Shown here: one piece after another, positions 22,137 through 31,799 of the stretch
Numbering within the stretch: position 1 is the first letter of the stretch
Layout: each line of letters opens with the position of its first letter
From: Prochlorococcus sp. MIT 1300
GTDB lineage: Bacteria; Cyanobacteriota; Cyanobacteriia; PCC-6307; Cyanobiaceae
Direction: 5' to 3'
DNA length: 64,000 nt
Assembly: GCF_034092375.1 (NCBI RefSeq)
Contig: NZ_CP139302.1
Location: 992,001-1,056,000 of the forward strand
The notes under the pieces: generated by a model
What the model was told of the DNA's origin: nothing
The model's input: the letters and a program-made list of their open reading frames with translations, nothing else
Database searches by the model: none
Position numbers and translations under genes: made by a program

Positions 22137-23765
22137 TTAGCTAGACGGCTGAAGTGATATAGCAGAGATATTCTCCAGTAAAAGCTCTAAAGATTTATCA
22201 ACATTTGGATCTGAAGGTCCATTTAGTTTATACAAAACCAAGCCATCTTCAACAGTCTGAGGGGAATACTTTCCTTTCAGATCCCTTAATTTAAGAATAA
22301 TTTCCTGAAGATCTCTCCATTCTGTTTTGAAAACATGTGCATACCTCTGATGCTCATCAACGTCTACAAGTATCCATTCAACATCTCTATCAGAACCATA
22401 TCTATCCCGATAATTTATGTGGTAAGGGAAGCGAATCAAAACTTCCCTTGCCGACAAATGTGGCACCAATGAGGAACTAGCGGAAACACTTGCATTGACT
22501 GGTATAGAGCTCATTATCTTTCTTGCAGTATTGCCATGTTTCCACTGAGCAACTGGTGCTCTGTACACCCAAGGATTAATACTCTGGGGTACCATCCAAG
22601 ACAGAGTACGGTTTGGGTTACTTGTTAGCATAAAGATAAAAGATAAGGCGATAAATCCAGACCAAATCCTCCTTATATTTTTTTTGTAAAACAAGTAACT
22701 TCTATCTTTCCACCAATATATTGATCCAGCAAATAAACCAGGAACCACTAAGTATGTATAACGCCAATTAATTGCGAGAGGGTTACCTTGCGCAAGCAAT
22801 AATCCAGCCAAAGGTAAACCCATAAGCAACCATGCATCCAAGGAGAGAAATGGAACAAACAACAAAGGGAGCCCTTGGCCAGCTAGATAACGAAGTGTCT
22901 TACCTGGAGGATTTACAAACTCTTTCAAAACAACTAAAGGTTGCTTTAGTGCAAAGCCTATGACTTCAAGGCTACTCGCCTTATCTTGGCCGGAAACATA
23001 TTGACCAAAGTTCTCAATCATAAAGCGCTTTGCATTATCTTCGCTATAAATAGGCATAATTATATTAGTAACTATAAGGACCCATATTGCCCCATAGAGA
23101 GTAATCCATAACGCGAATTTCCATCTATATCTATCGCGATAATAAAGCCATAAGCCAACTCCCATGAGAACAATACCAGTATCCTCTCTAATAAGAGGAA
23201 TAGCTATGGACAATAAAACTGCCAAAAAGTCTTTTTTCTTTTCTATCGCTAACAACAACCCAAATACCAAAAAAGGCAGCTGACAAAGATCAGTAAAGTT
23301 GCCAAGGCAAGGGCCTATAACTGCATTGGCTCCATAGAATGCAAATACAATCATTCTTGCAAGCTCAATATGTAACTTGAGCTTTGCCAATTCAAAAAGA
23401 AGAAGGCCGGCTCCCGCCATAAGAGTTACTTGAATCAAAGGCAAAGCCCATTTACCAAGTAAACCAACAATAGGTATCCATAATACTAAAATGGGAGTGT
23501 AATGTTGACCTAATCGATGATATCCAACTTCTGGATATTCTCCCGAATGAACAACATTAGTCGACAGCTGGGATGAAAGTGTGCTTTCAAAAGGGTGTCC
23601 ATTCAAGCCATTCCATAAGGATTGGTAGAAAATACCTTGGTCCATTGAGGCTGTCAGACTCTGCATGCGCCAGAACTGCAAAACACAACAGCCCAAAAAG
23701 AAAGCACCTGCCGCGAGGCCTACTTGTCTATCTAAGCGCCAAAGGGGTAATCTAATTTGACTCAT
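22137..23765 (-). CDS. DUF2079 polytopic membrane protein (copy 1)
   Basis: A 542-residue protein with about ten hydrophobic helices. Marks shared with the copy at 25765-27402 are MDQGIFYQSLWNG (family form DQGxF near residue 40), PEVGYHRLGQHYTP, FTDLCQLPF and REDTG, and a C-terminal soluble part with VPHLSAREVLIRFPYH (about 445-460). DUF2079 proteins resemble GT-C glycosyltransferases that use polyprenyl-phosphate sugars, but none has a clear enzymatic test that I know of. It is the last minus-strand member of the glycosyltransferase block. The structured RNA candidate lies directly upstream on the other strand. Confidence 0.8.
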   Translation of the reverse strand: MSQIRLPLWRLDRQVGLAAGAFFLGCCVLQFWRMQSLTASMDQGIFYQSLWNGLNGHPFESTLSSQLSTNVVHSGEYPEVGYHRLGQHYTPILVLWIPIVGLLGKWALPLIQVTLMAGAGLLLFELAKLKLHIELARMIVFAFYGANAVIGPCLGNFTDLCQLPFLVFGLLLAIEKKKDFLAVLLSIAIPLIREDTGIVLMGVGLWLYYRDRYRWKFALWITLYGAIWVLIVTNIIMPIYSEDNAKRFMIENFGQYVSGQDKASSLEVIGFALKQPLVVLKEFVNPPGKTLRYLAGQGLPLLFVPFLSLDAWLLMGLPLAGLLLAQGNPLAINWRYTYLVVPGLFAGSIYWWKDRSYLFYKKNIRRIWSGFIALSFIFMLTSNPNRTLSWMVPQSINPWVYRAPVAQWKHGNTARKIMSSIPVNASVSASSSLVPHLSAREVLIRFPYHINYRDRYGSDRDVEWILVDVDEHQRYAHVFKTEWRDLQEIILKLRDLKGKYSPQTVEDGLVLYKLNGPSDPNVDKSLELLLENISAISLQPSS

Positions 23766-24008
23766 TTAATCAGCCATCGATTCAGTTGTACAGAATAAAT
23801 AGCACCATCAAAAAAAATTTTCTAGCCTTATGAACTTGACCAACATTGATCTAGCTTCTTTTACAATTTCTCCAAAAACCCATAACACCCATAAAAATCC
23901 TTGACTAAAGCTAGTCTGTATCAGTCAGGCAATAGCGAAGTGACAACGGTTCTTGAATCGCAGTCGCAAGCTTCGTGATTTGCCATATCCCACCAGGAGG
24001 AGGTGCCC

Positions 24009-24062
24009 ATGAGTCACAGTTGTTCCATCAAGGGTCTGCTGATCGCGGAGAACGTCGGCTGA
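24009..24062 (+). CDS. 17-residue small ORF with a strong ribosome-binding site
   Basis: The frame reads MSHSCSIKGLLIAENVG and stops at TGA. AGGAGGAGGT ends 4 nt before the ATG, the strongest Shine-Dalgarno I saw in the window, so translation is likely if it is transcribed. The peptide has one Cys and one His and no clear domain. It may be a leader peptide or a short secreted or regulatory peptide. Such short ORFs behind structured RNA are known downstream of the glutamine-binding Downstream-peptide motif of marine picocyanobacteria, but that link was not checked. Confidence 0.5.
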   Translation: MSHSCSIKGLLIAENVG

Positions 24063-24117
24063 TTAGTCCTATCTTTCCTTGATCAACTGGTTCCGCGCCA
24101 TAGCGGGCCCGACGAGA

Positions 24118-24150
24118 GCCCCTAGTGAGAATATTTTCCTCACTAGGGGC
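24118..24150. terminator. Perfect 12-bp hairpin between convergent transcripts
   Basis: GCCCCTAGTGAG (24118-24129) pairs exactly with CTCACTAGGGGC (24139-24150) around a 9-nt loop. It lies between the small ORF on the plus strand and the end of the DUF2079 copy 2 gene on the minus strand. Neither side has a clean T-run, so termination is plausible but not certain; it may instead protect RNA 3' ends. Confidence 0.45.
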
Positions 24151-24170
24151 ATCGTTAATGAAAATCTAAT

Positions 24171-25616
24171 CTAATTAGTCTCATTAATTGATACTTTTTC
24201 ACAAAGTTCTATGCCTACAGGCCACTGCTTACATAACCAACCTTCTTCATTAGCTTTTAACAATAAATCCTTCTGTACTTGACTACTTGAACCCCAACCA
24301 GGATCCTCTGGGTTTAACAAAAAAATGTCAAAAGCTGAATAATCCTTAAATTTGGTTCCCACTCTAGGGAAATCTACGACTTTCCTGTGACTAAGATGAG
24401 GTATAAAATAACTCGTGGTTAATAATCTCCCCTCCGTGGGGATACTCAACATTGCTTGATTGAATGGTTGTCGAACTTCTAATCGCTCTAAGTATGGTCC
24501 TGTAAAGAACCAAGGCTTTGATAAAACTGCCCAACAAAGGGCACTCCAAACGAGGCTCCTGAATGGAATATTCTTTCTACGATTGACAGCTATTCCATCT
24601 ATAGCCGCAATTACACCAATAACTGCAAGAGGCAAACTATAATGATGAATAAGTGTTCTCTGTGGAGATTCTTCAGAAAGCAAGTTTACGACAACTAAAG
24701 GTAATCCACCTAACAAAACTGGTAAAGAAGATTGTCTCCAAAAAGGGGAAAGAGAAACTGAAATCAACACGAGGTATATAAAACCACCAATCCAATCTAG
24801 ATTCTCAAAAACTAAGCTTGGATTCGTAACAAGGTTAACAATAACCTCATCTAAAGTATCACCTAAATAAGAAAACAAACCTGCGGCAGCCTTAGGTCCA
24901 GTATTGCTACCAGTTAGTAACGGATATAGAAATTTATTCAAAAAACATAACCACATTAAAGATAAACCAATCGCAGCACAAGACCAAGTCCATTTTCGCC
25001 TCAAAGCCAATTCGAATCCGATCCCTCCTACAACCAGCACTAAACCATCGCGCGCTCCAAGCAAAACAACCAACAATACGAACCAAACCCAAGGTCTATT
25101 AGATCTACAAAACCAATAGCTTGCAGCCAAAGCAGGCATAACCCAAACTTCTGGATGAAAATCAAATAGATTTACATTCAAAACAACCGGCTGAAGCCAC
25201 CAAAGCGTACAAACCAGCCAACAATGCTTATTCGGTAAACCTGCCTGCCTTCCAACACACCAAATAGGTATAGCTGTAAAGCTTAAAGCGATAGCCTGAC
25301 TCGCCAAGAGCCATTGAACACTGCTATTAAAACAATAAGGAATTGCTGCTATATAAAGAAGCCAAGCTCCATGGTCAGCCAATAGATGGCTTCCCTCCAT
25401 AGACGAATATTGGGGCAAGCCTCTACTTGCCAACCAAATCCATTGATCAAACAATCCAAGATCATAAGCATTACTCTGAAGCAAAGAATGCCTTAAGCCT
25501 GAAAACATCCAAAATAACAACGCAATGATCACGCAAATCATTATTAACTTGCGGGCAGGGAATAACTCCTCAAACGAAGGTCTACTCCTAAATTTACTAG
25601 CCAGGGAGAGTCCCAT
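24171..25616 (-). CDS. DUF2079 polytopic membrane protein (copy 2)
   Basis: A 481-residue polytopic protein, the most divergent of the three DUF2079 copies. It keeps SNAYDLGLFDQWIW (about 50-63), FDFHPEVWVMPAL, the LGARDGLVLV motif in place of REDTG, and the C-terminal IPHLSHRKVVDFPRVG (about 416-431) that corresponds to the soluble motif of the other copies. Many helices and a short soluble end suggest an inner-membrane enzyme with a periplasmic active site, as in GT-C enzymes. The acceptor is unknown. A 148-nt gap to the next upstream gene shows no feature. Confidence 0.78.
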   Translation of the reverse strand: MGLSLASKFRSRPSFEELFPARKLIMICVIIALLFWMFSGLRHSLLQSNAYDLGLFDQWIWLASRGLPQYSSMEGSHLLADHGAWLLYIAAIPYCFNSSVQWLLASQAIALSFTAIPIWCVGRQAGLPNKHCWLVCTLWWLQPVVLNVNLFDFHPEVWVMPALAASYWFCRSNRPWVWFVLLVVLLGARDGLVLVVGGIGFELALRRKWTWSCAAIGLSLMWLCFLNKFLYPLLTGSNTGPKAAAGLFSYLGDTLDEVIVNLVTNPSLVFENLDWIGGFIYLVLISVSLSPFWRQSSLPVLLGGLPLVVVNLLSEESPQRTLIHHYSLPLAVIGVIAAIDGIAVNRRKNIPFRSLVWSALCWAVLSKPWFFTGPYLERLEVRQPFNQAMLSIPTEGRLLTTSYFIPHLSHRKVVDFPRVGTKFKDYSAFDIFLLNPEDPGWGSSSQVQKDLLLKANEEGWLCKQWPVGIELCEKVSINETN

Positions 25617-25764
25617 TTTGAAGCTATATTGAACCTATTTAGAATAGCTAAATGGTGTTAAGCGGAAACAACGAAAGCATATTCAAGATAAACTGACATG
25701 GTTATTAAACTCAATTAAATTCGTAATTTTATTTTTAAAAATCTCGCGTATAGGAATTTAAATA

Positions 25765-27402
25765 CTAATTTAGTAATTGCAAGTCACCCCTTATGGAATT
25801 AATCTCCCTAACAAAGCATTCTTCATTTCGAGCATTAGTTGAACCATTGTATTCTAGTATTATAGAGTTCTTATCGCAATGAAAAACAGTATATTGACTG
25901 CTTTCAACTAATTCTTCTAATCGATTAATGCTTTTGGATACCCACAACTTGTGATGATTAAATGCGGGTGCGTATGAAAGATTAAATCTTGGTTGACTTA
26001 CTATAAAGTCTACTGAAACATCATGTCCTTTTTCATCTCTATATTGATCATTTTCCGGGAAGCGGAGTAATACCTGTCTTTGTGCAAGTTGAGGTATGAG
26101 ATGTGTTTCGGCAGATACAGCAGCTGTCCTAGGGATTAGATTGACAACTTTCCTAGCAACTTTTCCTCTAACCAGCTGCTCCTTCAAAGGCACCTTGACC
26201 CAAGGATCAATGCTGTCAGGGATAACAAAGGAAAGTGCTCGGTGAGGGTTAGCCGCCAATGCGAATGCAAAAGCGATAATCAAGCAAAACCTCCAAAATT
26301 TCCTGAATAAGCTTCTTTTAAATAAGTCAGGGTGGTCGGCTAGCCAAAATATAGTGCCAGCAAAAATCCCTGGCACTAAGTAAAGAACAAAGCGTAAATG
26401 CACCACCAAAGAGTTTCCACCCTGAGAGCTAAGTGCAACAAACAACGGAAATGCTATTAATAACCAAGTATCCAAAGCTATCAAAGGAATAAAGGCTAGT
26501 GGTAAGCCAGCAGTAATTAAAAACAAAAAAGTCTTCCCGGGGGGAGAAAATAATTCCTGAATTAGTAAAATTGGTTGGCTAATCATTGATAGCAATACAT
26601 CAATAGTGCCTCCTGACCTACCATCTAAAAAGTGTCCAAATCTTTCTTGCATAAAACGATCCGCCAACTCTGTACCAAACATAGGCATAACACTATTGGT
26701 AATTACCATGACAGCCAAACAAGAGTAAAAGCATAGTCCTAAGCCAAATAATCTCCAATTAGGCCGTCTAATAATCATCCAAACCCCCACTCCAAATCCA
26801 AGCAAGCCAACATCTTCTCTTACTAGCGGTAACAATATTGATGAAAGAAAATATAGTGGTATTTGATTTCTAGTAATGCCAAGCAAAAGACAAAAAATCA
26901 AGCAAGGGATAACACAAAGATCATGAAAATTCTCTAGGGTTGGCCCTATTACTAAAGTTGTAGAGAAATAGCTAAATACAATCCATGCAGACAATTTGGG
27001 TGGGAGATATTCATTAGCTAGGAGAAAAAGGATATACCCCCCCAACGAGATCATTCCCACCTGAATCAGAGGCAAGGACCACAGACCCAAAAAACGAACC
27101 AATGGAGTCCAAAAAAGTAATAGAGGCGTAAAGTGTTGTGCTAGGTGTCGATAACCAACCTCTGGCAAGGCGCCATCAAACATTACTGGAGCAGATAGTT
27201 CAGAAGCAAGAGTGCTCTCAAAGAAACGGCCATTAGCACTATTCCAGATTTCTTGGAGGAAAAGCCCCTGATCATAAGTCGCATTAAGAGTATAAATTCG
27301 CCAAATTTGCAAGCTTAATGTTACACAAAAGAAACCAAATATGTACCTAAAAACATAAGCATGTGCCGATTCATCCTTATTAGGTAAGAGATGAAATTTC
27401 AT
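25765..27402 (-). CDS. DUF2079 polytopic membrane protein (copy 3)
   Basis: A 545-residue protein, clearly a paralogue of copy 1 over its full length: ATYDQGLFLQEIWNSANGRF, PEVGYRHLAQHFTPLLLFW, FHDLCVIPC, LVREDVG, FSPPGKTF and, near the C-terminus, IPQLAQRQVLLRFPEN. Predicted helices are about ten. Its start overlaps the GT39 gene stop by 4 nt (27399-27402), so the two are translated from one mRNA. This coupling supports a shared lipid-linked sugar pathway. Confidence 0.8.
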   Translation of the reverse strand: MKFHLLPNKDESAHAYVFRYIFGFFCVTLSLQIWRIYTLNATYDQGLFLQEIWNSANGRFFESTLASELSAPVMFDGALPEVGYRHLAQHFTPLLLFWTPLVRFLGLWSLPLIQVGMISLGGYILFLLANEYLPPKLSAWIVFSYFSTTLVIGPTLENFHDLCVIPCLIFCLLLGITRNQIPLYFLSSILLPLVREDVGLLGFGVGVWMIIRRPNWRLFGLGLCFYSCLAVMVITNSVMPMFGTELADRFMQERFGHFLDGRSGGTIDVLLSMISQPILLIQELFSPPGKTFLFLITAGLPLAFIPLIALDTWLLIAFPLFVALSSQGGNSLVVHLRFVLYLVPGIFAGTIFWLADHPDLFKRSLFRKFWRFCLIIAFAFALAANPHRALSFVIPDSIDPWVKVPLKEQLVRGKVARKVVNLIPRTAAVSAETHLIPQLAQRQVLLRFPENDQYRDEKGHDVSVDFIVSQPRFNLSYAPAFNHHKLWVSKSINRLEELVESSQYTVFHCDKNSIILEYNGSTNARNEECFVREINSIRGDLQLLN

Positions 27403-28940
27403 TGATTTACATTATCCAAAGAAAGGAAGTAGGTTGAGCCGATAGTATTTAGACAGTCTGGCGATTCACCACAAAATAATTCTTCCAATTTTATCTTCGT
27501 TGTGCGACTGGAGAGCTTCGCATAACTTTCTTGCCATTCAAAGCTTCCTACAAGATATTTAGCCCCTTGAGAAGACCAATGCGCCAAGCTGGATTCATTA
27601 ACGTTTTCAATAGAAGTTAACCAACCTTGTCGTCTTGCAAGATTTAATAAAGTTGGATCACCTCCAGTAACAGTTACAATACGATGGTCTCCAGGAACTT
27701 CATTTCTTATTCTCTCTGCTAAGGGCATCCATATCTTTTCTTGAGTTCTTTCTAAGGACCAATAATCAAAGTTTAATATCGTAAAACTAATCAAAATATT
27801 AAAAAGAATGAGCCAAAGTTGGCTGGGCACTGAAAATATCAGAGATTTAGAGATTGTTGTTGAACAAATTACAAAGCCTCGGCCCATCAATGGGCAGGCA
27901 AATAACATTAATGGTAATTGATAATATTCATGAATTGAACTTGCACGAAAAGCAATTAAAGTAGAGGCGAACCAGCCTATGACGCCAGACATAAGAATAA
28001 ACCCTCCTAAATCTTTGCGGGTTTTCCAAAAGCCTAAGAAGGCAAGAGGCAATCCTAAAATAGCAAAATTCCGCAATGTAATTCTTAAGGCAAAGTCCAA
28101 CCAGACCTGAGTATTCAACAAAAGCCTTAGGCTGCTTCTATCAGAACTTGTGCCCCAAAAACCAAAGCTAAGGCCTGTTATTTGACCTATCTGATAAGCA
28201 TAGAAAAACCAAATAGATACAATCAATATTACAGTCATAAAATAAATAGATAAACTAGGTTTTTTTAGTATATTAAAAACGTTCAATACTAGTTTTAATA
28301 AGCCATTTTGACGATGCCTTCTAGTATTTTTTGCATGCAAAGCCAATATAGGTATCCCCAGCCAAATTAATGGTAAAACTTTAATTAAACAAGCAGCTGT
28401 AAAACTTGACCAGCTAAACATTAAAGACCAAACACTACCAGTCTTTCTCCAAGAAAAATATCTCTCAATACTTAATGCTCCAAACATTAAAAGCATTGAT
28501 TCTGCCTGAAAAGTACGCCCATAGAAAACGGTTAAAGGTAATATTGCAAAGAAAAGTCCACCCCACCAACCACTATCAGGGTCCAAAAGAATTGTTCCAA
28601 TTCGAATGACTAAAATGATTGTTATCAAACTACAAATAACGGCAGTTGAACGACCAACCCATTCGTGAATTCCTGTTAACTTATAAAGCTGACCTATTAA
28701 AAATGGAAAAAGCGGAAACTCACATTCAACAAATCCATCACTTGCACCTCCCCAATCAATTTGCGGCAACCAAATAGGCGTACCTTTAAGGGCAAAATGT
28801 CTGGCCATAGCTGCGGTATCAGCCTGACGCCAGCTATGCACACCTAGAATAGGAGACTGAATCTGAATCAAACGAAGAATTAAACCTAAAAAGACTGGGA
28901 TTGAATAATCTCGAAGTCGAAAGTTCAATAAAGCAAGCAT
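27399..28940 (-). CDS. GT39-like membrane glycosyltransferase
   Basis: About 513 residues from the ATG at 28940. The open frame reaches back to 29054, but that would overlap the DPM1-GtrA gene by 98 nt, while the inner start leaves a 16-nt gap and begins MLALLNFRLRDYSIP, right before the first helix. The N-terminal exposed loop has SWRQADTAAMARHFA, the variant acidic motif of many PMT/ArnT-like enzymes, followed by about ten helices. It is expected to transfer a sugar from polyprenyl phosphate to protein or glycan on the periplasmic face. Substrate unknown. Confidence 0.78.
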   Translation of the reverse strand: MLALLNFRLRDYSIPVFLGLILRLIQIQSPILGVHSWRQADTAAMARHFALKGTPIWLPQIDWGGASDGFVECEFPLFPFLIGQLYKLTGIHEWVGRSTAVICSLITIILVIRIGTILLDPDSGWWGGLFFAILPLTVFYGRTFQAESMLLMFGALSIERYFSWRKTGSVWSLMFSWSSFTAACLIKVLPLIWLGIPILALHAKNTRRHRQNGLLKLVLNVFNILKKPSLSIYFMTVILIVSIWFFYAYQIGQITGLSFGFWGTSSDRSSLRLLLNTQVWLDFALRITLRNFAILGLPLAFLGFWKTRKDLGGFILMSGVIGWFASTLIAFRASSIHEYYQLPLMLFACPLMGRGFVICSTTISKSLIFSVPSQLWLILFNILISFTILNFDYWSLERTQEKIWMPLAERIRNEVPGDHRIVTVTGGDPTLLNLARRQGWLTSIENVNESSLAHWSSQGAKYLVGSFEWQESYAKLSSRTTKIKLEELFCGESPDCLNTIGSTYFLSLDNVNQ

Positions 28941-28956
28941 CAGAGGTTCTTCTCTA

Positions 28957-30084
28957 TCAAGGTGTATTCCATACAAAACGAGACGACGCAGCATAATTCC
29001 ATACAAAAACAACAAATATCCCTGCCATTTGCGCCCACAACTCGTTAGGTGCAATCACTTGGTAAAAAATTGTTGCTAACCCTACATTCGCTACAACTGG
29101 CAAAGAAGCAACTAGCAAGAACTTGAGCAGGCCCCCAAAGAGCAACCAACCTCTAAGTCTATGGAAGCGAAATGTCAAAGCATTATTTATAAGGTAATTA
29201 GAAGTGGCTGCTAGAACTACAGATATAGGCAAAACATTCACAAAGTCGGCATCAAACAATTTCATTAACAGTTTCGTGGAGAATAACTGAACAAATACTC
29301 CACTAAAGCCTACAAATGCGAAACTAATTGCACGACGTGGAATTAATCTAAAAGTAATAGTATGTACTAATGAAATCCAAAAATCCCACAAAATTGCTAG
29401 GTCCAGCTTAGAACGACCAAATTCCCTCGGTTGGAAAGAAAAAGAAAACTCATCGACTAATAAGCAGCCTCCACTAATAGAAAGTAATTCGTATAAAAAT
29501 TTAAATCCATTCACATCAACTTTACGAACGAATGGCAAACATTTACTGAGGTTCAATACAATAAAACCACTCATATAATCTGTTAGATGTCCATAGCTTA
29601 ATGGCAAGCTAAAGCGAGCTAAACGGTTAGCCATCGAGGAGCCTTCAGTGCGTCTTCGGCTAAGTCCTAGGATTTTCGCTTCGCCTAGGAATCGGCTGCC
29701 TGAAACCAAATCTAGCTTTCCATTAATTAATTTTTTAACTGCTTTTAATAAGGCAACTGTTTCATGTTGGCCATCAGAATCCATGACCACAGCTATGCTA
29801 CCTGTTGCATCTAACAAACCCTCTTTAATTGCACTGGCCAAGCCATATCTGCCAACTCGACTAATTAGACGCACACAAGGTTCATGACTAGAGATGCTCT
29901 TAACCAGATCTGATGTGCCATCACGAGAGTCATCATCTACGACTAAGATTTCAAGATCATAATATTGCTTATAAATAAGGAGTTGATCTATCAATGGTTG
30001 AATATTTTCATACTCATTATAGGTAGGTAAGACGACTGATAGCCTAATTTGCTTTTTCTTTTTTTCCCTGTCAAGTGTAATCAT
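28957..30084 (-). CDS. Polyprenyl-phosphate glycosyltransferase (DPM1-like) fused to GtrA domain
   Basis: A 375-residue protein in two parts. Residues about 15-240 are a family 2 glycosyltransferase: VVLPTYNEYENIQPLIDQL, VVDDDSRDGTSDLV, and the metal-binding VVMDSDGQHE (about 95-104). Residues about 248-375 are a GtrA-like four-helix domain: ISFAFVGFSGVFVQLFSTK, with NYLINNALTFRFHR typical of that family. Such fusions make polyprenyl-phosphate sugars on the cytoplasmic side and may help flip them. It supplies the likely donor for the GT39 and DUF2079 proteins beside it. The upstream gap to the next GT39 gene is 29 nt. Confidence 0.88.
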   Translation of the reverse strand: MITLDREKKKKQIRLSVVLPTYNEYENIQPLIDQLLIYKQYYDLEILVVDDDSRDGTSDLVKSISSHEPCVRLISRVGRYGLASAIKEGLLDATGSIAVVMDSDGQHETVALLKAVKKLINGKLDLVSGSRFLGEAKILGLSRRRTEGSSMANRLARFSLPLSYGHLTDYMSGFIVLNLSKCLPFVRKVDVNGFKFLYELLSISGGCLLVDEFSFSFQPREFGRSKLDLAILWDFWISLVHTITFRLIPRRAISFAFVGFSGVFVQLFSTKLLMKLFDADFVNVLPISVVLAATSNYLINNALTFRFHRLRGWLLFGGLLKFLLVASLPVVANVGLATIFYQVIAPNELWAQMAGIFVVFVWNYAASSRFVWNTP

Positions 30085-30113
30085 TTCATCGAGAAGTTAA
30101 AGGGCAGTTAGAA

Positions 30114-31799
30114 TTAATCTGAGCCGCAAAACATCAGCGACCATGCCTCCTCACTATCAACTATTTTGCAAATCCTAGATAGAGAAATTACCTTTTGATT
30201 TAGCCTTATAGGGTCCTGAGTCAAAATCCATTCTGCATTAGGTCTGCTTTGAAAAGAAGCGATTCTCTTGCCTGCATACCAATTGAGGCTTGGTCGCTCC
30301 TCATTCCCCTCCAAGACAAGCTCCGTCTCAGGTGCACGAGAAATCAATTCTCTCAAGGAATCAACAGGCCAAGTCTCATTCAATTCCCAAAGCCAAAGGG
30401 GGGATGTCATCAAAAACATTAAGGCAAGATAACTGCCTGACATCAACATGAAAATTCCATATCTTCTCTGAGTTTTTTTTGAACTACATAACCAGTTTCC
30501 CCCAACGCACAACCCTGCTCCGATTGGCAAGGTAAAAAGGCTATAGGGACTAAATGCAGAAAATAGATTCGCCAACCCCAAAGAACTGACAAAAACCAAG
30601 ATCAAGCCAATGCACTGCCAAAGAGAAGGTACTCTTTCAAGAACCCTGAAATAAGGAGGTTTCTGAGAGCTGTCGCGGTTTATCAACCAAACCAAGGGAG
30701 GAGCACATAGCAAAGCGAAAGGGAGCCAAAGGGGGTGGCTATACCAGGGCAATTGAGTCTTAAGAGGAAAGATTGCCAACATCATTACCAATTGAGTGCT
30801 TAAGGCCCATTGACCCCATAGGCTCTTACGTCTTCGCCAAGCCCACATAACGCCAAAGGGCCATAACAACAACCAAGGCCAACCCCCTTCAAGAATTTCT
30901 ATAAGAGGCACTCTCCAGCCAAGGTCACTCCCTTCCCCTGCATCTAGGAGTACTCGCATAGCACCATCACCACCCCACAACCAAAAAGCTGCATGTCCAC
31001 GCTGCCACCAATGAAAAAAATGCCACCCAAGACCTGGAGCCAGGCCTAAAGCAAACCAAAGAAGTAGCCCTAGAGTCCACCAATTCTTCCAGGCTTTTCC
31101 CCAAGCAAGTGCCACTAATCCAGCAAACAAAACAGGTAAAAGTAAAGGTGCTTTAAGCATCAACATGCAACTGCTAACTAAACCAATGCCTAACATTTTC
31201 AACTGGGTGTATGAACAACTATCAAGCGCAGCTATCAATAGCCAAAGCAGTGCAATGCAACTCAACTGAGTGCCATCCAACATTGCCAGGCGACCATGGC
31301 GTACCAAAGGCATCAACGTCAGCAAAATTCCAGAGGTAACAAGAGTGACATTTCGATCGCCACAAGTTAATTTCCACTGAATTAGCCCTCCAAAAGGCAC
31401 GACGAAACTAGATAAAAATGCTGGTATTATTCGGACATAAAACTCATTCGGTAATGACTGCCAAACATTCGAATTAGTATTATCAAAACCCATTGCAAAA
31501 GCAATAAGCCAATGCAAACCTGGTGGTTTGTTCAAGTAAGGCTCATTCCAAATTGTAGGCAGAAGTTTTTGTATCCCACTTTTGGGTATGAACTCATATG
31601 AAACACGTGCAACAGTACCTTCGTCAAAATCTCTTAAAGGCAAATCCCCCAGACCCACAAAAGCCAGAAGGCAACCCAAACCCCACAAAAGTAATAAGCC
31701 TTTAAAAGGAGCTACTCCGTCTGCCGTAAAAGATTCATCTGAAACTCGTGGATTCAACTCTAAAGGCCTTCTTGCATTCATAAGAACCAAGCACCTCAA
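30114..31799 (-). CDS. GT39-like membrane glycosyltransferase (ArnT/PMT type)
   Basis: A 561-residue membrane protein; the start may be the second Met at residue 7. After the first helix comes LPLRDFDEGTVARVSYEFIP (about 52-71), with the Asp-Glu pair that is catalytic in the ArnT/PMT family. A second conserved set is PYLNKPPGLHWLIAF (about 85-100), then about ten more helices and a soluble end. It is the first gene of the minus-strand block running down to 22137 and probably carries its promoter. The function is probably sugar transfer from polyprenyl phosphate to protein or lipid; exact acceptor unknown. Confidence 0.83.
   Translation of the reverse strand: MRCLVLMNARRPLELNPRVSDESFTADGVAPFKGLLLLWGLGCLLAFVGLGDLPLRDFDEGTVARVSYEFIPKSGIQKLLPTIWNEPYLNKPPGLHWLIAFAMGFDNTNSNVWQSLPNEFYVRIIPAFLSSFVVPFGGLIQWKLTCGDRNVTLVTSGILLTLMPLVRHGRLAMLDGTQLSCIALLWLLIAALDSCSYTQLKMLGIGLVSSCMLMLKAPLLLPVLFAGLVALAWGKAWKNWWTLGLLLWFALGLAPGLGWHFFHWWQRGHAAFWLWGGDGAMRVLLDAGEGSDLGWRVPLIEILEGGWPWLLLWPFGVMWAWRRRKSLWGQWALSTQLVMMLAIFPLKTQLPWYSHPLWLPFALLCAPPLVWLINRDSSQKPPYFRVLERVPSLWQCIGLILVFVSSLGLANLFSAFSPYSLFTLPIGAGLCVGGNWLCSSKKTQRRYGIFMLMSGSYLALMFLMTSPLWLWELNETWPVDSLRELISRAPETELVLEGNEERPSLNWYAGKRIASFQSRPNAEWILTQDPIRLNQKVISLSRICKIVDSEEAWSLMFCGSD

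Follow-up and report, generated by a model that had tools for sequence, protein, structure and literature searches.

Analysis of the window, a stretch of 64,000 nucleotides from Prochlorococcus sp. MIT 1300, revealed a gap of 405 nt (positions 23766-24170) between genes at 22137-23765 and 24171-25616, both of which are located on the minus strand, as an earlier note on this DNA had stated. The plus strand of the gap carries a 5' hairpin, a Shine-Dalgarno (SD) sequence, an open reading frame (ORF) of 17 codons, a second, longer-range hairpin that spans part of the ORF, and a 12-bp hairpin with perfect pairing. All of these features, which the earlier note had listed, were recovered within element bounds of 23924-24158 (+), slightly offset from the 23901-24150 given there. 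The neighboring genes had been described as a glycosyltransferase block; they encode DUF2079/PMT-like membrane proteins, and such genes do not consistently accompany the RNA across loci.

The folding-energy z scores for 23901-24155 were -3.6 for the plus strand and -3.5 for the minus strand. Because these values are nearly equal, the strand is not decided by energy alone; it was assigned as plus on the basis of the promoter, the SD sequence with its ORF, and the U-ended hairpin. The -10 promoter box, TAGTCT (consensus TANNNT), is positioned at 23912-23917 (+). Among 96 aligned upstream regions, clear conservation is restricted to this box (T 88%, A 92%, T 87%) and to a single G (93%) located at the fixed distance of 7 nt after the box. 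The box in the window is displaced by 1 nt relative to the aligned relatives, and no -35 element was found among the 96 regions. From this promoter, we infer that transcription probably starts at the G. The whole RNA would extend on the plus strand from 23924 to the end of the terminator at about 24157/24158, where a hairpin is followed by T-rich sequence, and the R1 model described below matches nearly the same interval. The -10 box, the start G at a fixed distance, and the terminator hairpin indicate that the element is its own transcription unit, as had been supposed, with a predicted RNA of about 235 nt.

A search at the DNA level detected the element in 22 of 37 Cyanobiaceae genomes, including that of the window, and in none of the 23 genomes tried from other families. 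A covariance model (R1), built from 19 members that were all from Cyanobiaceae, revealed the element in 203 of 400 Cyanobiaceae genomes, almost always as a single copy; these are counts of sequences and not of independent events. In the window, R1 matched 23926-24158 (E = 7e-63), which was the sole good match in this genome. Exact-pattern matches include Synechococcus WH7803, RCC307, WH5701, and SynAce01 and Prochlorococcus MIT 0701. Many Cyanobiaceae genomes of 1.6-1.9 Mb were without the element in the R1 search, and relaxed searches in five of them gave no convincing match; streamlined Prochlorococcus do without the RNA. No match pointing to carriage on phages or plasmids was found, and five viral contigs that share a 19-nt pattern reached only about 15 bits over 69-79 nt.

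The 5' hairpin, P1 (23928-23984 [+]), is formed by GGCAATAGCGAAGTGAC and GTCG..GCTTCGTGATTTGCC and contains a 4-nt bulge. The second hairpin, P2, shows conserved pairing between a 5' arm at 24032-24059 (+), which consists of ORF codons 8/9 to 17, and a 3' arm at 24087-24110 (+), and the stop codon lies in its loop. The terminator domain, T (24111-24157 [+]), has the form ACGA-GA-GCCCCTAGTGAG/CTCACTAGGGGC-A-TCGT with a T-rich end and contains the perfect 12-bp hairpin (arms 24118-24129 and 24139-24150). Covariation was analyzed in 100 Cyanobiaceae sequences. In this alignment, which was fitted to the model and whose pairing percentages therefore lean towards structure, 96.1% of the pair cells were standard pairs. 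There were 630 double changes compared to 180 +/- 11 in shuffled alignments, and the covariation score was 0.386 compared to 0.153 after shuffling and at most 0.09 with the partners slid. The picture was the same in an unfitted alignment, with compensatory change in 27 of 52 pairs. Covariation support was greatest in P1 and in the terminator. Each of the 13 pairs of the P1 main helix had a two-sided change in one or more of the 100 sequences, with 95% of the cells paired, and 13 of the 18 pairs of domain T had two-sided changes. In the P2 helices GGGTC/GACCC, GCT/AGC, and GCGGA/TCCGC, 86-99% of the cells per helix were paired. As the ORF-bearing P2 arms vary little and show few double changes, the support there is mostly consistency. 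The P1 hairpin is specific to Cyanobiaceae and is not conserved in other cyanobacteria.

The ORF (24009-24062 [+]) starts with ATG at 24009 and comprises 17 codons followed by TGA, corresponding to the peptide MSHSCSIKGLLIAENVG. It is preceded by the SD sequence AGGAGGAGGTG (23995-24005 [+]), which lies 3 nt 5' of the start codon and has eight contiguous bases complementary to the generally known 3' tail of 16S rRNA, compared to seven for the best of the 57 long ORFs in the window. Within the SD sequence, AGGAGGTG is almost invariant among relatives. The ORF has exactly 17 codons in 96 of 100 Cyanobiaceae relatives. The copies not counted include two that are cut at the 5' end and one (L219) with 17 codons by eye and a weaker SD sequence, and among the roughly 98 copies that are complete, only one has a broken frame (L020, from a draft genome of 71% completeness). 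The only starts are ATG and GTG, and the stop switches among TGA, TAA, and TAG in separate genera. We infer that the ORF is probably translated.

The start, length, and stop of the ORF are conserved, and the amino acids are much less so. In Cyanobiaceae, codons 2, 3, 5-7, 10, 11, and 17 hold unlike residues, and in the unpaired codons 2-7 the second positions are as variable as the third. The earlier note had envisaged a synonymous bias alongside conservation in relatives, covariation, and a frame that is not freely broken; of these, the bias alone did not appear. No excess of synonymous or conservative changes over column permutations was detected in the ORF in Cyanobiaceae (85 of 100 permutations were at least as high) or in other cyanobacteria (51 of 100), and no third-position excess was found in the unpaired ORF codons of Cyanobiaceae. 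A coding signal in a frame test was discarded, as it was driven by the penalty on stops in the other frames and was gone in the corrected test. Since RNA pairing and the ORF constrain the same bases, every substitution test is weakened here. These results suggest that translation matters more than the peptide made.

Outside the Cyanobiaceae, R1 gave full-length matches in two genomes from a single genus (E = 1e-14 for S. elongatus and 2e-13), one of which we take to be S. elongatus PCC 6301, and in two genomes of another family (E = 2e-9 and 2e-4). A second model (R2), built from these four non-Cyanobiaceae sequences only, revealed the RNA in 326 of 390 Cyanobacteriia genomes, with essentially one copy each. 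In a phylum-wide draw, R2 matched 93 of 244 genomes, and among the matches listed all were within this class. Because R2 recovers the element of the window (E = 2.5e-9) and R1 finds S. elongatus, the homology is reciprocal. In 46 aligned non-Cyanobiaceae matches, 97.6% of the cells pair, with 122 double changes compared to 38 after shuffling, and S. elongatus has the same P2 topology as the window (z = -3.5). A joint MAFFT alignment of both forms was left out because the terminator was misaligned. The terminator of other cyanobacteria has the form CTAGACCGC..GCGGATAGTTTT, and a GA/A internal loop is common to both forms. The ORF comprises 23 codons in 40 of 45 non-Cyanobiaceae homologues, with 28 TAA and 12 TAG stops, or 25 codons if an in-frame upstream ATG is used, and the ribosome site is AGGAGGTGATG. 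The usual 23-codon peptide, M.(E/D)SSK.MG.QV.VSRLCAGAVL, is encoded 3' of AGGAGGTGATGCCC, and the single internal indel among these ORFs is one whole codon. The S. elongatus homologue has 17 codons (MVECSKTLGLIVGESRL), and a TGA stop is present in two S. elongatus-type genomes. These comparisons indicate that the RNA is much older than the Cyanobiaceae.

The four R1-matched loci outside the Cyanobiaceae are positioned directly 3' of psbD and 5' of porin genes and of a gene that, by similarity, is presumably pterin dehydratase-like (PCD). The psbD/porin neighborhood was also seen at Cyanobiaceae loci. Among 45 non-Cyanobiaceae loci, psbD is the upstream gene in 24, a count limited by contig ends.

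No family of Rfam 15, including the 6S, glnA, and Yfr families, matches the element at gathering or relaxed thresholds. The earlier note had considered Downstream-peptide (Glutamine-II) RNA, which, like the element, is a structured RNA that precedes short ORFs in picocyanobacteria. This identity was rejected, as a search of 23770-24200 with RF01704 was negative at E <= 5 and the model matches the same genome elsewhere. The three Glutamine-II matches outside the window are located at 696923-696985, 1618108-1618162, and 1777414-1777478 (G000:C1), and two of them are above the cut-off. The other option of the note, a small RNA or a dual-function RNA, survives in the form of a structured RNA with a conserved short ORF. 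Yfr103, a structured noncoding RNA (ncRNA) of marine Synechococcus and Prochlorococcus, has a plausible distribution, but Synechococcus CC9605 carries 7 paralogues of it, each 290-328 nt long, and Prochlorococcus SS120 has it as well. A genome of 2,510,659 bp, which we assume to be that of CC9605, contains one good element match of 243 nt, and the best match in a genome of 1,751,080 bp, presumably that of SS120, reaches only 9.7 bits (E = 2.1). Yfr103 was therefore ruled out by copy number, length, and SS120. Voigt et al. reportedly described ncRNAs of MIT9313 in 2014 and could conceivably have named the element there. In a genome of 2,410,873 bp, which we take to be that of MIT 9313, the element lies at 2096381-2096611 (-). 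As this position is away from the published loci of yfr1, yfr2, and yfr7 (1220973, 1667304, and 727045), Yfr1-Yfr7 were also rejected.

A co-occurrence with Hfq was suggested by Axmann 2005. An Hfq-dependent small RNA was rejected, since Hfq_1 was not found in the genome of the window or in the carriers G007, G011-G014, G020, G021, G025, and G028, and Hfq is thus not needed. SgrS/SgrT and SR1/SR1P are named as dual-function small RNAs (PMC5126843) and resemble the element in that a single RNA is both translated and structured. They differ from the RNA of the window in that its peptide is not conserved as an amino acid sequence and its pairing target is only putative.

Judged by published features, the RNA very probably belongs to the family of ncl0160, an RNA that was originally detected in Synechocystis 6803 and was described by Brenes-Alvarez et al. 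in 2016 (PMC4734099). This RNA has 83 homologues in 89 cyanobacteria, a set from which marine picocyanobacteria were excluded, and a translatable region of 23-25 amino acids that begins with ATG or GTG 3' of a ribosome site and has 47 TAA, 34 TAG, and 2 TGA stops (PMC4734099). It was predicted to be a conserved, likely translated RNA, with a conserved peptide favored, and was listed as a small RNA (PMC4734099); no other mention of it was found in the literature searched. The homologues described here match ncl0160 in every feature checked, being independent, near-universal small RNAs with a conserved short ORF, mostly of 23-25 codons, a start codon (ATG or GTG) preceded by a ribosome site, and stops in the order TAA > TAG >> TGA. 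The form in the window differs by its 17 codons, its extra conserved 5' hairpin, and its altered terminator domain.

With moderate confidence, we propose that the element encodes an independent RNA in which selection falls on the act and reach of translation and on the fold, rather than on the peptide, and which would most likely act in trans as a small RNA gated by ribosomes. A translating ribosome would pass through the P2 5' arm and terminate in the P2 loop. Because this arm is built from ORF codons and the loop holds the stop codon, each round of translation would open P2, and P2 would close in the untranslated RNA. Most likely, as far as the sequence allows a prediction, ribosome loading would set the state or stability of a small regulatory RNA. 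This reading is preferred to a peptide gene because the limits of the ORF are conserved and its amino acids are not. A micro-gene, in which a peptide of 17-25 amino acids is the product and the hairpins merely regulate or stabilize the mRNA, seems rather unlikely. It would explain the strong SD sequence, the retained start and stop, the similar 23-amino-acid peptide in 40 sequences, and the peptide-like positions of the wider class (E/D at codon 3, M/V/L at codon 8, and V/I/F at codon 12), and a peptide has been proposed for ncl0160 (PMC4734099). However, the ORF substitutions, in Cyanobiaceae and in the others, show no synonymous or conservative bias relative to shuffled columns, and unlike residues fill many of the Cyanobiaceae codons. 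A purely structural or base-pairing small RNA, with the SD-like tract and the ORF as by-products, would agree with the very strong covariation in both forms and with the listing by the 2016 authors (PMC4734099). It is nevertheless improbable, as the exact ORF length and the alternation of ATG/GTG and of TGA/TAA/TAG are unexpected without translation.

An effect in cis on a neighbor is unlikely because the neighbors and their strands vary. Among 77 Cyanobiaceae loci with both neighbors identified, 53, with that of the window among them, have a downstream gene whose strand is opposite to that of the RNA, both neighbors are co-oriented with the RNA in only 8, and the element is fully conserved regardless. 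That the RNA is a leader or attenuator of an adjacent PCD or porin gene, with the ribosome position selecting between P2 and other folds, is accordingly quite improbable, and no alternative antiterminator pairing was seen on inspection. This would fit the order of ORF, hairpin, and terminator, which is that of an attenuator, and the same-strand downstream PCD and porin genes in other cyanobacteria (23 and 30 of 45 loci, respectively, counts limited by contig ends). It is extremely improbable that the element is Yfr103, Glutamine-II, or another already named marine RNA, given the copy number, length, and SS120 presence of Yfr103 in relation to the genomes taken as CC9605 and SS120 and the lack of an RF01704 match at the element; the occurrence of Yfr103 in the same marine genera and the short ORFs behind Glutamine-II had made such an identity worth considering. 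In extension of the proposed ribosome-gated RNA, we tentatively suggest, with clearly less than even confidence, a near-universal cyanobacterial switch that predates the divergence of the sampled families, retains its ORF for the sites of ribosome start and stop instead of the peptide, signals or responds to the capacity for translation, and was lost mainly in streamlined Prochlorococcus.

To our knowledge, very few RNAs besides Yfr1, Yfr2, 6S, and housekeeping RNAs are kept across cyanobacteria. The RNA described here is single copy, is linked to psbD in many lineages, and is absent from Rfam. The assignment of the marine picocyanobacterial copy to an RNA family provides a family-wide alignment together with a defined promoter, structure, and ORF, and the losses form a natural set for the study of the RNA. 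If translation itself is the function, this would be an unusual ribosome-gated RNA.

In non-marine cyanobacteria (e.g., L286, 1678-1719), the terminator sequences CTAGACCGC and GCGGATAGT are almost invariant, which is more than a plain terminator needs and may reflect a protein site. In the window (22137-31799) and at the loci of relatives, the RNA is embedded in a block of membrane glycosyltransferase genes (DUF2079/PMT/ArnT-like), which is inserted between psbD and a porin gene on one or both sides of the RNA. This block is variable, and its gene content differs among genomes; the place and strand of the RNA are constant. Draft assemblies often end 200-500 nt from the element, and these breaks probably fall at the adjoining psbD and porin genes, which are multi-copy. 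The contig L099 (CALPNT020000072.1), recorded as a metagenome-assembled genome of Bifidobacterium breve, carries the element beside DUF2079 and porin genes and looks like a misassigned cyanobacterial contig. One locus (L060, G034:C1) has a degenerate second copy 3' of psbD, separated from the intact copy by glycosyltransferase genes (loci 2023818-2024057 and 2018484-2018725); the degenerate copy looks like a duplication left by block insertion or recombination.
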